Assembly (NCBI GenBank): GCA_019241525.1
Contig: JAFAWY010000101.1
Span: 1 to 64,000 of the forward strand
DNA length: 64,000 nucleotides
Origin: Pseudonocardiales bacterium
GTDB taxonomy: Bacteria > Actinomycetota > Actinomycetes > Mycobacteriales > Pseudonocardiaceae
Direction of reading: 5' to 3'
In this document: positions 10,911-15,433 of the stretch, piece after piece
Layout: each line of letters begins with the position of its first letter
How positions within the stretch are numbered: the stretch's first letter is position 1
The notes under the pieces: generated by a model
Told to the model about the DNA's origin: nothing
The model's input: the letters and a program-made list of their open reading frames with translations, nothing else
Databases searched by the model: none
Made by a program: the position numbers and the translations under genes

Positions 10911-11420
10911 ATGACTGTTGGGCCTGCCCCGACCCGCGGTGGCAGTGTCACCAGCGCCGACACGGTGACCGACGCCGTGTTGCGGGCCTCGCGCCTGCTG
11001 GTTGGCCTGTCGGCCCGCTCGATCGCCGCCGTGGACGACTCCATCACGCTGCCCCAGTTCCGGCTGCTAGTGGTGCTGTCCACGCGCGGCCCGATGAAGC
11101 TGTCGGCGTTGGCCGAGCACCTAGACGTCAAGTCATCCACCGCGACCCGCATGATCGACCGACTGGTCGCCGCTGGACTGGTGGACCGGGAGATCAATCC
11201 GATCTCCCGGCGTGAGGTGGTGATCGACCTGACCGGCACCGGCGCCTCCGTGGTCACCCGAGTCACCCAGGCACGGCGCAGGGAGATCGCTAACATCGTC
11301 GCGAACATGCCCCCACCACACCGCACATGGCTGGTGGACGCCCTGGATGCATTCAGCGAGGCCGGCGGCGAACCCTCCATCGACGGACTGGACACCCGAC
11401 GCGTCGCCGACTGGATCTAA
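10911..11420 (+). CDS. MarR-family transcriptional regulator (divergent from ClC)
   Basis: 169 residues. A winged helix-turn-helix core is visible: LPQFRLLVVLSTRGPMKLSALAEHL, recognition helix VKSSTATRMIDRLVAAGLVDRE and wing INPISRREVVIDLTGTG. MarR proteins act as dimeric, ligand- or redox-responsive repressors of adjacent genes. It is transcribed away from the ClC gene across a 58-bp gap containing an 11-bp palindrome. The ATG at 10911 has no strong ribosome binding site; a GTG downstream near 10946 is an alternative. Confidence 0.85.
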   Translation: MTVGPAPTRGGSVTSADTVTDAVLRASRLLVGLSARSIAAVDDSITLPQFRLLVVLSTRGPMKLSALAEHLDVKSSTATRMIDRLVAAGLVDREINPISRREVVIDLTGTGASVVTRVTQARRREIANIVANMPPPHRTWLVDALDAFSEAGGEPSIDGLDTRRVADWI

Positions 11421-11482: not shown

Positions 11483-12490
11483 GTGAGTGATCCACTGAAT
11501 GATCCTGCGGTGCGTCGCAAGCTGGCAGTCCTGCGCCATGTTGACGAGGTGACCGGCAATGTGGCGATGACGTGCCGCTACTTTGGCATCAGTCGTCAGC
11601 TGTACTACACCTGGTTGCGCCGCTATCAGGACGAGGGCCTGGACGGGTTGCGGGATCGGTCGCGGCGGCCTAAGACCTGTCCGCATGCTACCGATGCTGA
11701 GGTCGTCGAGAAGATCGTCCACCTGCGCCGGACGTACCACTTCGGGCCGACGAAGATCTCGATGTATCTGCAGCGCTACCACGACGTGGCCGTGAGCAGA
11801 TCCGGGGTCTGGCGCATCCTCAAGCGCTTGGGCCTCAATCGGCTGCCGGCGTCGCAGCGGTATCAGCGGCGCGACCGCAAGTGGAAGCGTTACGAGAAAC
11901 AACAGCCTGGCCACCGGGTGCAGATCGACGTCAAGTTCATCGAACCGCTGACCACCACCGCAGCCAGCACCACCGCCGGCAGCTCGGCTGACTCCGCAGC
12001 GAGCAGCGAGGTGCGGTCGGGCCGGCGGGGCAAGTACTACCAGTTCACCGCGATCGATGACTGCACCCGACTACGCGTGCTGCGCATCTACCCGCAGTGC
12101 AATCAAAAGACCGCGATCCAGTTCGTCGACTACGTCCTGGACCGGCTGCCCTTCAAGGTCGAAGTCATCCAAACCGACAACGGCGCCGAATTCCAAACAG
12201 CGTTCCACTGGCATGTGCAGGACAAGGGCATTGGTCACGTCTACATCAAATCCCGCACGCCCGACTCAACGGCAAAGTCGAACGCTCCCACCGCATCGAC
12301 GCCGAAGAATTCTACCGTTTACTCGACGGCGTCGTCATCGACGACACCAAAGTATTCAACGACAAACTCCAAGAATGGGAAGACTACTACAACTACCACC
12401 GACCCCACGGCGCCCTCGGCGGACAAACACCCTATGAAAGACTCCGCCAGAAAACCCACCCAGCTGTCGCCGATCTACCACAGCCGCACA
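11483..12490 (+). pseudogene. IS481-like transposase, frameshifted
   Basis: The N-terminal HTH part (CRYFGISRQLYYTWLRRYQDEG) and the DDE core with D in VQIDVKFIEP and D in VIQTDNGAEFQT are in frame 11483-12262. A one-base loss at about 12263 (ACGCCCGACTC) shifts the frame; the rest, containing the catalytic Glu (LNGKVERSHRIDAEEFYRLL) and the typical NYHRPHGALGGQTPYERLRQKT ending, continues in another phase to roughly 12480. The insert TTTAASTTAGSSADSAASS between the first D and the strand after it is unusually Ser/Thr/Ala-rich. A GGTCTC/GAGACC hairpin sits just before the GTG start. No matching right-end inverted repeat was found, so the element is also probably truncated. Confidence 0.8.
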
Positions 12491-13145
12491 TGGCCGATGC
12501 TTTCGGAGCCAGTCGCCAGTCCGCCTGGGAACGATTCCGCACTCACTCCCGTTGGAATCGCACACACAGACTATCGCGGCTGCGACGTGTACGGCGTGCC
12601 GCGATGCTCCGCCGGATGGCGCTCGGCCAGAGCGATGAATTTGTCGCCGTCCTTCGACAGATGGTGCGAGCCGATCGCGCGTCGTCATCGCTGGATCGCC
12701 AGCTAGAAAGGCCTGCCGGATCGGTAGTGCGTGGATAGAAGCGCGGGCCGCGTGACTACTGAACCGCGATCAGGGCCGTTGTCACGGGCTACATGTTATG
12801 GCTGACAAAATTTTAATGTACCCTTGGCCGCTTCGATCACAACTGTGGTCGCTGCTCGTGTTTACAGGCGTCGGGAACGGCCCCGTAGCGATCGGTGTGC
12901 TCTTCGCGTGCATGGTGGGCATCATCGCCAGCCACAGATGCTCTGCGGGCGGGTACCGATCGGACGGATCGTGATCTCAGGCTCTTCAACCAAGAGGGCC
13001 TGGTTCTTATGCTGACACGTCAGCTCCACCGAGGAATGTCGGTGATCAGTCAGGATCCTTGGCTGATCCGACCGCTGTCGCGCAGAAGCAAAGACCAACC
13101 GCCTCCCTGTGGTGCAGCCGTCGGGAGGCGGTGGTTGGGGCTGAC
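12491..13145. other. Gene-free stretch with several inverted repeats
   Basis: About 650 bases with no supported gene. Visible secondary-structure signals: GCTGAC-AC-GTCAGC at 13011-13024, a GGCTCTT/AAGAGGGCC hairpin near 12980-13000, and the terminator at 13094-13138. An AT-rich patch (AAAATTTTAATG, about 12807) is unusual for this genome and may mark a promoter or foreign DNA. Confidence 0.4.
13094..13138 (-). terminator. Rho-independent-like terminator after pirin
   Basis: A long stem, CCAACCGCCTCCC pairing with GGGAGGCGGTGGTTGG (a few bulged bases) around a 16-base loop, lies eight bases past the pirin stop. No strong T-run follows, as is common in actinobacteria. Confidence 0.65.
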
Positions 13146-14153
13146 TCAGCTGCCCTGTGGCTGCTGGGTGGTCAGAGGTGAGTTGTGGCTGTCGGTGTGC
13201 GGCAGGTGCTGGGCGGGGATGACGCCCAGCTTGCCGGCCTGGTAGTCCTCGAAGGCCTGGAGCAGTTCGGCGCGGGTGTTCATCACGAACGGGCCGTAGG
13301 CCGCCACGGGTTCGCGGATAGGCAGTCCGCCCAGCAGCAACACCTCAAAGTTGGGCTCGGCGCTCGGCTGGTGGGCGGCGGCAGCGAGGGTCAGCGCATC
13401 ACCGGGCCCGAACACGGCCAGCTGGCCCTTGCGCACCGGCCGCGCCTGCGTTCCAACGGTGCCCTGGCCGGCAAGCACGTAGGCCAGTGCGTTGTATTCC
13501 GTCGGCCAGGGCAGGTCGACCTGGGCGTCGGGGCTGACAGTGGCGTGCACCACGGTGATCGGGGTGAAGGTCATACCGGGTCCGCGATACCCGGCAACCT
13601 CGCCAGCAATGACTCGCAGCAGCGCTCCGCCGTCGGCCGAGGACAGCAGCGTGGCCTGCCGGCCGCGGATGTCCTGGTAGCGCGGCGGGTTGAACTTGTT
13701 GGCCCTGGGCAGGTTGACCCACAGCTGGATGCCGTGGAAGACCCCACCGGAAACCACCAATGCCTCCGGTGGCTTTTCGATGTGCAAGATCCCAGCGCCC
13801 GCGGTCATCCACTGCGTGTCGCCGTTGGTGATCACACCTCCGCCACCGTTGGAATCTTGATGCTCGAAGACTCCATCAATGATGTAGGTGACGGTCTCGA
13901 ACCCGCGATGCGGGTGCCATGCGGTGCCCTTGGGCTCGCCCGGGGCGTAGTCCACCTCACCCATCTGGTCCATGTGCACGAACGGGTCCAGCTCGGTTAG
14001 CGAGACCCCGGCGAAGGCGCGGCGCACCGGAAATCCCTCGCCTTCGAAACCGCTCGGCGCGGTGGTCACTGAACGCACCGGACGTCGCCGGCTGGCCGGA
14101 TCTAGGCTGGGTACGCGGGGCAAAGTGAGAGTGTCCGCGGTGATGGCAGGCAT
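13146..14153 (-). CDS. Pirin-family bicupin protein
   Basis: About 335 residues with the N-terminal pirin cupin (DPFVHMDQMGEVDYAPG, then the metal-site block AWHPHRGFETVTYIIDG and WMTAGAGILHIEKP) and the C-terminal pirin_C cupin (ALAYVLAGQGTVGTQ, EVLLLGGLPIREPV, GPFVMNTRAELLQAF). Bacterial pirins are Fe/Ni/Cu-binding cytosolic proteins; some are quercetin dioxygenases or redox sensors. The second ATG at 14153 is preferred because GGAGG sits six bases before it. A 14-bp palindrome, identical to one in front of yceI, lies 15 bases upstream of the start, so the gene is probably repressed by the MarR protein at 14942. Confidence 0.92.
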   Translation of the reverse strand: MPAITADTLTLPRVPSLDPASRRRPVRSVTTAPSGFEGEGFPVRRAFAGVSLTELDPFVHMDQMGEVDYAPGEPKGTAWHPHRGFETVTYIIDGVFEHQDSNGGGGVITNGDTQWMTAGAGILHIEKPPEALVVSGGVFHGIQLWVNLPRANKFNPPRYQDIRGRQATLLSSADGGALLRVIAGEVAGYRGPGMTFTPITVVHATVSPDAQVDLPWPTEYNALAYVLAGQGTVGTQARPVRKGQLAVFGPGDALTLAAAAHQPSAEPNFEVLLLGGLPIREPVAAYGPFVMNTRAELLQAFEDYQAGKLGVIPAQHLPHTDSHNSPLTTQQPQGS

Positions 14154-14168
14154 GGCCATCCTCCAATA

Positions 14169-14182
14169 GTTGACGTATCAAC
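14169..14182. promoter_or_regulatory. MarR-type operator GTTGACGTATCAAC upstream of pirin
   Basis: Perfect 5-bp arms (GTTGA/TCAAC) around CGTA. The identical 14-mer occurs at 14878-14891 and a variant at 14908-14921, all next to starts of pirin, yceI and marR. The site abuts the pirin ribosome binding site, where a bound repressor would block transcription. Confidence 0.7.
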
Positions 14183-14254
14183 TTGTTGTTTCTGATAACG
14201 CGAAAGGTCAAGCGCACAATCCCCGGTATGGCTTCATCCCGGGTGACTCGCCAC

Positions 14255-14290
14255 GGCCTCGGGTGTGCTGTCGGGGGCACATCCGAGGCC
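14255..14290 (-). terminator. Hairpin terminator after yceI
   Basis: GGCCTCGGGTGTGC pairs with GCACATCCGAGGCC (one mismatch) around a 7-base loop, ten bases past the yceI stop codon. It separates yceI from the pirin promoter. Confidence 0.65.
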
Positions 14291-14300
14291 GCAGCCTGGA

Positions 14301-14858
14301 TCAGTCCTGCTCAATCTTGATCGCGGAGATGTCGAACTCGAGGGTTACCTTGTCGGAGACGAGCACGCCGCCAGCTTCCAGCGCAGCGTTCCACGCCACG
14401 CCCCAATCCCTGCGGTTGATTGTGGTGGTGCCTTCGAACCCGATACGGATGTTGCCGAAGGGATCAGTTGCAGTGCCGGTGTACTCAAAATCCACAGTGA
14501 CCGGCTTGGTGATGCCCTTGATGGTGAGATCCCCTGTGAGCCGGTAGGTGTTGTGGTCGACTGCCTCGGCTGCGGTGGACTTGAAGGTGATCTGCGGGAA
14601 GTTCGCCGCATCGAAAAAGTCGTTGTTGCGCAGGTGCTCGTCACGCTGACCATTGCCAGTATTGACGCTGGCTACCTGGATGGTGAGCTCGGCGTGCGAG
14701 TTCGCCGGATTCTCGAAGTCGATATGCGCCGTGCCCGCCAACTCGTCGAAGGAGCCGCGGACCTTGGTCACCATCGCGTGGCGAGCGACGAAACCGATCC
14801 GGCTGTGGCTGGCGTCGAGCACGTAGTCACCGGTAAGGGGCTGGGTGAGGGTGGTCAT
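14301..14858 (-). CDS. YceI-family protein (lipocalin-like isoprenoid-binding)
   Basis: 185 residues with the YceI signature: GDYVLDASHSRIGFVARHAM at the start, VRGSFDELAGTAHID, the NGQRDEHLRNNDFFDAANFP block, and AEAVDHNTYRLTGDLTIKGITKPVTVDFEYTG in the second half (quoted in parts). The fold is a lipocalin-like barrel that binds polyprenyl/isoprenoid chains; bacterial members are linked to stress and acid/base response. There is no signal peptide, so this copy is cytosolic, as in most actinobacterial homologues. AGAGGAAC precedes the ATG. The operator palindrome is 19 bases upstream, shared with the divergent marR. Confidence 0.93.
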   Translation of the reverse strand: MTTLTQPLTGDYVLDASHSRIGFVARHAMVTKVRGSFDELAGTAHIDFENPANSHAELTIQVASVNTGNGQRDEHLRNNDFFDAANFPQITFKSTAAEAVDHNTYRLTGDLTIKGITKPVTVDFEYTGTATDPFGNIRIGFEGTTTINRRDWGVAWNAALEAGGVLVSDKVTLEFDISAIKIEQD

Positions 14859-14877
14859 GAGTTCCTCTCGATCGTTT

Positions 14878-14891
14878 GTTGACGTATCAAC
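14878..14891. promoter_or_regulatory. MarR-type operator GTTGACGTATCAAC between yceI and marR
   Basis: Exact copy of the palindrome in front of pirin. It lies in the 83-bp divergent region where a MarR dimer would control both yceI and its own gene. Confidence 0.75.
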
Positions 14892-14907
14892 AACGTGCTC
14901 AACGCGC

Positions 14908-14921
14908 GCTGATGCGTCAAC
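14908..14921. promoter_or_regulatory. Variant operator GCTGATGCGTCAAC upstream of marR
   Basis: Same layout as the 14878 palindrome with imperfect arms (GCTGA/TCAAC) and spacer TGCG. It is 20 bases upstream of the marR start and fits an autoregulatory site. Confidence 0.6.
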
Positions 14922-14941
14922 ATTCCCGGTAGGGTGAGCAG

Positions 14942-15433
14942 GTGGCGACCCAGCGCTGGCTCACCGAGCAGGAGCAGGCGATGTGGCGCGGCTTTATGCA
15001 GATGTGCCGCGCCCTCGATCTGACGATCGAAGCGCAGCTGGCGGAGCACGGACTGTCCACCGCCGATTACGCGTTGCTGGTGCCGCTGTCCGAGACACCC
15101 GGCGGGGTACTGCGGCCCCGCGATCTGGGTCACGTCACCGGCTGGGATCGCAGCCGCCTGGCTCATCAGCTCCGGCGTATGGAACAGCGCGGCCTGGTCC
15201 GTCGCTTCCATTGCCCCACCGACGCGCGGGGCACCATGGTCGAACTGACCCCGACCGGACGTCAATCGATCGAGGCAGCCGCACCGGGTCACGTGGAGAC
15301 CGTGCGGCGACACTTCATCGACGTCCTCACTCCCGCGGAAATCGACACCCTCACCGCGATCGCCACCCGGGTCAGCAGTACAGCCACCCCCCGCTGCGGC
15401 ACCGAGGAGCCGTCCCAAAGCTGCGACAGCTAG
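14942..15433 (+). CDS. MarR-family regulator, likely repressor of yceI and pirin
   Basis: 163 residues with a winged HTH: LSTADYALLVPLSETPGGVLRPRDLGHV, recognition helix GWDRSRLAHQLRRMEQRGLV and wing FHCPTDARGTMVELTPTGR. This resembles the subgroup of MarR regulators found with yceI and pirin genes in actinobacteria. The GTG at 14942 follows GGGTGAGCAG. The N-terminus (TEQEQAMWRGFMQM) is typical of this subgroup. No Cys-based redox switch is obvious in the HTH; Cys residues occur near the N- and C-terminal ends. Regulation of the three-gene set is inferred from the shared palindromes. Confidence 0.9.
   Translation: MATQRWLTEQEQAMWRGFMQMCRALDLTIEAQLAEHGLSTADYALLVPLSETPGGVLRPRDLGHVTGWDRSRLAHQLRRMEQRGLVRRFHCPTDARGTMVELTPTGRQSIEAAAPGHVETVRRHFIDVLTPAEIDTLTAIATRVSSTATPRCGTEEPSQSCDS

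Follow-up and report, generated by a model that had tools for sequence, protein, structure and literature searches.

The closest described system to the locus considered here is that of Corynebacterium glutamicum, in which the MarR-type regulator RosR (Cg1324) is encoded next to the YceI-type protein Cg1322. The operator consensus of RosR is reportedly TTGTTGAYRYRTCAACWA. DNA binding by RosR is reduced by H2O2, and loss of cg1322 raises the sensitivity of C. glutamicum to H2O2 (PMC5401885). The published rosRb site of this organism is TAGGTGATATGACAACAC (PMC7764795). A second relevant group comprises the promoters read by the thiol-stress sigma factors SigR of Streptomyces and SigH of Corynebacterium and Mycobacterium, whose consensus is fitted by GGGAAT-N18-GTT (PMC3489674, PMC10012870). 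The first of these two papers mentions neither cg1322 nor rosR, and the second mentions neither of them nor pirin.

The window, i.e., the whole stretch of DNA analysed, comprises 64,000 nt from a Pseudonocardiales bacterium, whose genome is 4.7 Mb in 148 contigs and 98%-complete. It contains the marR, yceI and pirin genes and the predicted elements listed in Table 1. The MarR protein scores above the Pfam cut-offs for MarR_2 (38.3 bits; cut-off 27) and MarR (29.4; cut-off 24.6), and the NCBIfam equivalog cut-off is reached by none of the MarR, YceI and pirin proteins. The preliminary description of this DNA called the role of the YceI and pirin proteins poorly understood, which for YceI is an overstatement in view of the phenotype of cg1322 loss (PMC5401885).

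Table 1. Genes and predicted control elements of the marR–yceI–pirin locus, in window coordinates.
Feature	Position	Strand	Description
pirin	13146..14159	-	337 aa, two-domain; Pfam Pirin 2e-30, Pirin_C 6e-28
Operator O3	14169..14182	none	predicted; GTTGACGTATCAAC, upstream of pirin; extends to AGTTGACGTATCAACT at 14168-14183
Weak SigR/SigH-like pirin promoter candidate	14197..14223	-	GGGATT-N18-GTT, one mismatch
yceI	14301..14858	-	185-aa YceI-domain protein, divergent from marR; Pfam YceI 5e-55
Operator O1	14878..14891	none	predicted; GTTGACGTATCAAC; 18-mer TTGTTGATACGTCAACAA on yceI strand; over expected yceI start site
SigR/SigH-type yceI promoter	14901..14927	-	predicted; GGGAAT-N18-GTT, O2 inside spacer
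Operator O2	14908..14921	none	predicted; GCTGATGCGTCAAC, one-arm variant, 30 bp from O1; common to both divergent promoters
marR probable -10	14930..14935	+	TAGGGT, 6 nt before GTG; marR predicted leaderless
marR	14942..15433	+	163-aa RosR-type MarR regulator, GTG start; Pfam MarR_2, MarR; reciprocal best hit with RosR

The C. glutamicum locus (L101) was located by searching, at the protein level, a genus whose genomes are of Corynebacterium size. Since the published rosRb site there overlaps the start codon of a gene for a 162-aa MarR protein with cysteines at positions 64, 92 and 151, we take this gene to be rosR; these cysteine positions presumably match those of C. glutamicum RosR. The rosRb 18-mer itself gave two unrelated matches in a scan of genome contigs, and 251 sampled genomes of one family contained none. 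In searches run in both directions, the window MarR and the L101 protein are each other's best match, with about 40% identity (the next match in its own genome is at 2.4e-11), and the WDRSR stretch in the recognition-helix region is identical in both. In both loci marR is adjoined by a divergent yceI, and the window YceI is the counterpart of Cg1322, being 53% identical to the YceI encoded beside rosR. The operator core, the pairing of sites about 30 bp apart and a leaderless-type marR start are shared as well. The window set is, on sequence grounds, a relative of RosR/Cg1322, and marR, yceI and their putative operators appear to be an already known kind of switch.

The exact copies of GTTGACGTATCAAC reported earlier before pirin and yceI, and the variant GCTGATGCGTCAAC reported before marR, were all re-found at their positions. 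It had been supposed that yceI and marR have one site each; instead, because both sites lie inside one 83-bp divergent gap, O1 and O2 form a double operator. The idea of a MarR that regulates itself together with yceI has support from the sequence, and so has the suggestion that the sites would let a repressor block initiation. A pattern search of the whole 4.7-Mb genome returned only two exact copies of GTTGACGTATCAAC, both at this locus, so the 14-mer is not the common, randomly placed sequence that would have spoken against the earlier description. When up to two mismatches are allowed, the count rises to 12 places against 8 and 5 for a reversed control pattern, which is near background. 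The degenerate core GTTGAYRYRTCAAC, which we take to be the RosR operator core, is matched at 14/14 positions by O1 and O3 and at 13/14 by O2; with at most one mismatch it is found at 10 genomic positions (4 for the control), namely O1–O3 and seven others, of which five are inside long open reading frames and two (L020, L055) have an ambiguous reading-frame context. These counts support the view that the predicted sites are rare and non-randomly placed. RosR was reportedly assigned a larger regulon by Bussmann et al. in 2010, whereas the same search with GTTGAYRYRTCAAC and at most one mismatch gave no further convincing sites of the MarR elsewhere in this genome.

The double arrangement recurs in related loci. 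Of 61 marR genes related to that of the window, 34 have an upstream site matching at 13–14 of 14 positions, where mononucleotide shuffles predict 0.01; many of the 61 are close relatives and hence not independent. Pairs of sites 28–31 bp apart precede many related marR genes across the order, and the C. glutamicum pair is spaced by 29 bp, its second site being weak (11/14). Because such pairs also precede marR genes with no adjacent yceI, the paired layout is best regarded as a trait of this regulator subfamily. In two members of the window's genus (G002, G004), yceI and marR are co-directional and pairs of 12/14 sites precede yceI.

The sequence GGGAAT-N18-GTT upstream of yceI is the sole such match in the window; it combines a GGAAT-type -35 with a GTT -10 at a spacing inside the N17–19 range. 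O1 falls at the expected yceI start site, and O2 within the spacer of the yceI promoter, beside the marR -10. Comparable motifs are found upstream of yceI in 7 of the 26 other yceI loci examined, with GGGAAT in L026, L031 and L152 and the form GGAAT in L027, L052, L054 and L149. The genome also encodes a match to the SigH_actino family (TIGR02947, C24:6560-7132) with 354 bits (cut-off 251.55). We therefore describe the yceI promoter as SigR/SigH-type and predict sigma control. Its spacing is the same as in the SigR/SigH regulons, and it differs from them in having a predicted repressor site within the spacer; at cg1322, in contrast, no such promoter match was found. As for marR, in 49 of the 61 related genes (5.5 expected) a TANNNT precedes the start by 4–9 nt, and the recurrence of this spacing suggests that marR is leaderless and that O2 lies in its upstream promoter region.

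Taken with the genes, sites, promoter-like layout, conservation and SigH/SigR orthologue seen in the sequence, these features lead us to propose, as the likely reading, that a RosR-type and probably peroxide-responsive MarR represses marR, yceI and pirin through O1–O3. MarR dimers would bind O1 and O2 in the marR–yceI gap, at a distance of three helical turns. Occupancy of O2 would block the yceI promoter at its spacer and the marR promoter in its upstream region; with O1 covering the yceI start site, both divergent promoters would be shut. At O3, a dimer would sit immediately before the ribosome-binding site of pirin. The DNA would be released once a cysteine is oxidised, Cys91 being the most likely one (it aligns with Cys92 of RosR), and full expression of yceI would in addition require the thiol-stress sigma factor, so that a double condition is imposed. 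We favour this RosR-type model because the sites are rare, the regulators are reciprocal best hits, yceI is divergent, WDRSR and the cysteine at 91/92 are kept, the sites are paired, the SigR/SigH-type promoter, a strong SigH_actino match and the probable -10 of a leaderless marR are in place, and RosR and cg1322 are tied to H2O2 (PMC5401885).

The inclusion of pirin is less certain. The three-gene set described before is supported by the sequence for marR and yceI; for pirin it is supported only in part, the site being identical and its spacing being broken in a sister species. O3 is 14/14 identical to O1 and lies 10–23 nt before the pirin ATG, and a pirin with its own identical operator distinguishes the window from RosR/Cg1322 of C. 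glutamicum. In the sister genome (G009), O1 is exactly kept at yceI, and the pirin site, GTTGATGTCAAC, keeps its arms with a spacer 2 bp shorter; the operator as such is therefore conserved at yceI and not at pirin. The outer bases also differ, being A...T in O3 and T...A in O1. The broken spacing and these outer bases weaken the pirin part of the model.

It is conceivable, though we think it rather doubtful, that control by the MarR is confined to marR and yceI, and that the pirin site belongs to another regulator, its likeness to O1 being specific to this lineage. In this reading, pirin orthologues would have an old palindrome, approximately TAGTTG-N6-CAACTA, that some other MarR-type protein reads. 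Besides the deletion in the sister species and the outer bases of O3, such a reading is favoured by the pirin loci of the order at large: GTTG-N6-CAAC lies upstream in 15 of 30 (0.02 expected), and most of these lack a neighbouring marR or yceI. Since unlinked orthologues carry such palindromes, pirin may have had its own operator before this MarR took control of it, or may still answer to another regulator. In three genomes, moreover, the palindromes of pirin (GTTGTATCTGCAAC in G090, GTTGCAGACGCAAC in G105, GTTGCACGCGCAAC in G097) are unlike the sites of the RosR-like gene of the same genome, and a second MarR-like gene, recognised by eye, occupies about 10912-11420, at 1.7 kb from pirin. Against a separate regulator stands the complete identity of O3 and O1: if both sites were of the bare form GTTGA-N4-TCAAC, we infer that the four middle bases would agree by chance in about 1/256 of cases. 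Furthermore, AGTTG-N6-CAACT occurs four times in the genome and its control also four times, and a search for a separate regulator of sites of this kind gave none.

Pirins of a different class, too, repeatedly adjoin RosR-like marR genes, which counts against a separate regulator: they lie within 6 kb in 10 of 61 genomes, mostly within 1 kb. The order RosR-like marR, divergent yceI, pirin is found in other genera, at L065, L149–L152 and L158, where the pirin belongs to another class and, unlike that of the window, lies directly downstream of yceI, is likely co-transcribed with it and has no operator of its own. The loci L150–L152 have paired RosR-type sites as in the window; strong RosR-type sites were not found in L065, L149 and L158. 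In another locus, L153, yceI seems to survive only as its C-terminal part, flanked by a RosR-like marR and a pirin.

The promoters of pirin orthologues provide a second connection. Of the 30 pirin loci across the order (L119–L148, among them that of the window), a GGAAT/GGGAAN-N18-GTT promoter is present in 16, with 0.13 expected, which suggests that pirin is generally under SigR/SigH control. A literature search gave no paper linking pirin, YceI and MarR, and nothing usable on pirin with SigR/SigH. As judged from sequence comparison, the new elements of the locus are the putative link to pirin and the predicted repressor site inside a stress-sigma promoter.

What would the regulator respond to? 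Many MarR proteins respond to small ligands, and it could be that this one does so, rather than to peroxide, the motif mirroring only the conserved DNA-reading helix of the subfamily; we consider this unlikely. The cysteines bear on the matter. Cys91 of the window protein aligns with Cys92 of RosR; Cys152 is roughly opposite Cys151, but the tail is poorly aligned there; and Cys64, present in RosR, is without a counterpart. Nearly all related MarRs have Cys91, which therefore does not set RosR apart. The closest PDB matches, 3zmd (5e-31) and 3zpl (2e-25), presumably AbsC and SCO3205 of Streptomyces coelicolor, belong to the same subfamily and have a cysteine in the wing region that aligns at the Cys91 position; hence, Cys91 alone is no indicator of RosR function. 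In a quick, midpoint-rooted tree with many poorly resolved forks, the window MarR is not placed beside corynebacterial RosR, the two being in different large groups, each of which mixes proteins with and without yceI. The single clearly kept RosR cysteine and the placement in the tree count somewhat against the RosR-type model, and the window MarR is only possibly a strict orthologue of RosR. A small ligand is also suited by the missing Cys64 and by the occurrence of the same paired sites before marR genes with no yceI nearby. On the other side, the divergent yceI and the reciprocal best hit argue for RosR-like function, and the SigR/SigH-type promoters at yceI and at the pirin orthologues point to thiol or oxidative stress.

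That the palindromes arose by chance in a GC-rich genome and have no regulatory role is very improbable, for although the two-mismatch pattern is near background, the only exact copies in the genome are both here, related loci are enriched for sites with a fixed spacing, and the conservation extends across families.

Pirins and YceI proteins occur widely in bacteria, their functions being poorly assigned, and their repeated linkage to RosR-like regulators and thiol-stress promoters would give them a concrete, predicted role in oxidative stress. It is tempting to propose, tentatively and with somewhat more doubt than belief, that YceI and pirin make up one oxidative-stress module in some Actinobacteria, in which a RosR-type repressor site lies inside a SigR/SigH promoter spacer and expression requires both an oxidised repressor and a free thiol-stress sigma factor. 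Pirin would then belong to the peroxide/thiol response, having entered the module independently on more than one occasion. The interleaved layout of operator and promoter would further illustrate a way in which a single promoter could join repression with control by an alternative sigma factor.

Some minor features lie beyond the 3′ end of pirin. At 13011-13024, GCTGACACGTCAGC has perfect arms and matches the core at 12/14 positions; it was rejected as a fourth site, being at chance level (three places in the window score 12/14) with no suitable gene behind it. Just beyond the pirin stop, a GC-rich inverted repeat, CCGCCTCCC...GGGAGGCGG (13099-13137), is a possible terminator, at which the terminator scanner was silent. 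The second MarR-like gene is on the + strand, directly upstream of a transposase gene at 11483-12738 that by eye is IS481-like; the latter is probably broken, since its frame appears to shift near 12270.
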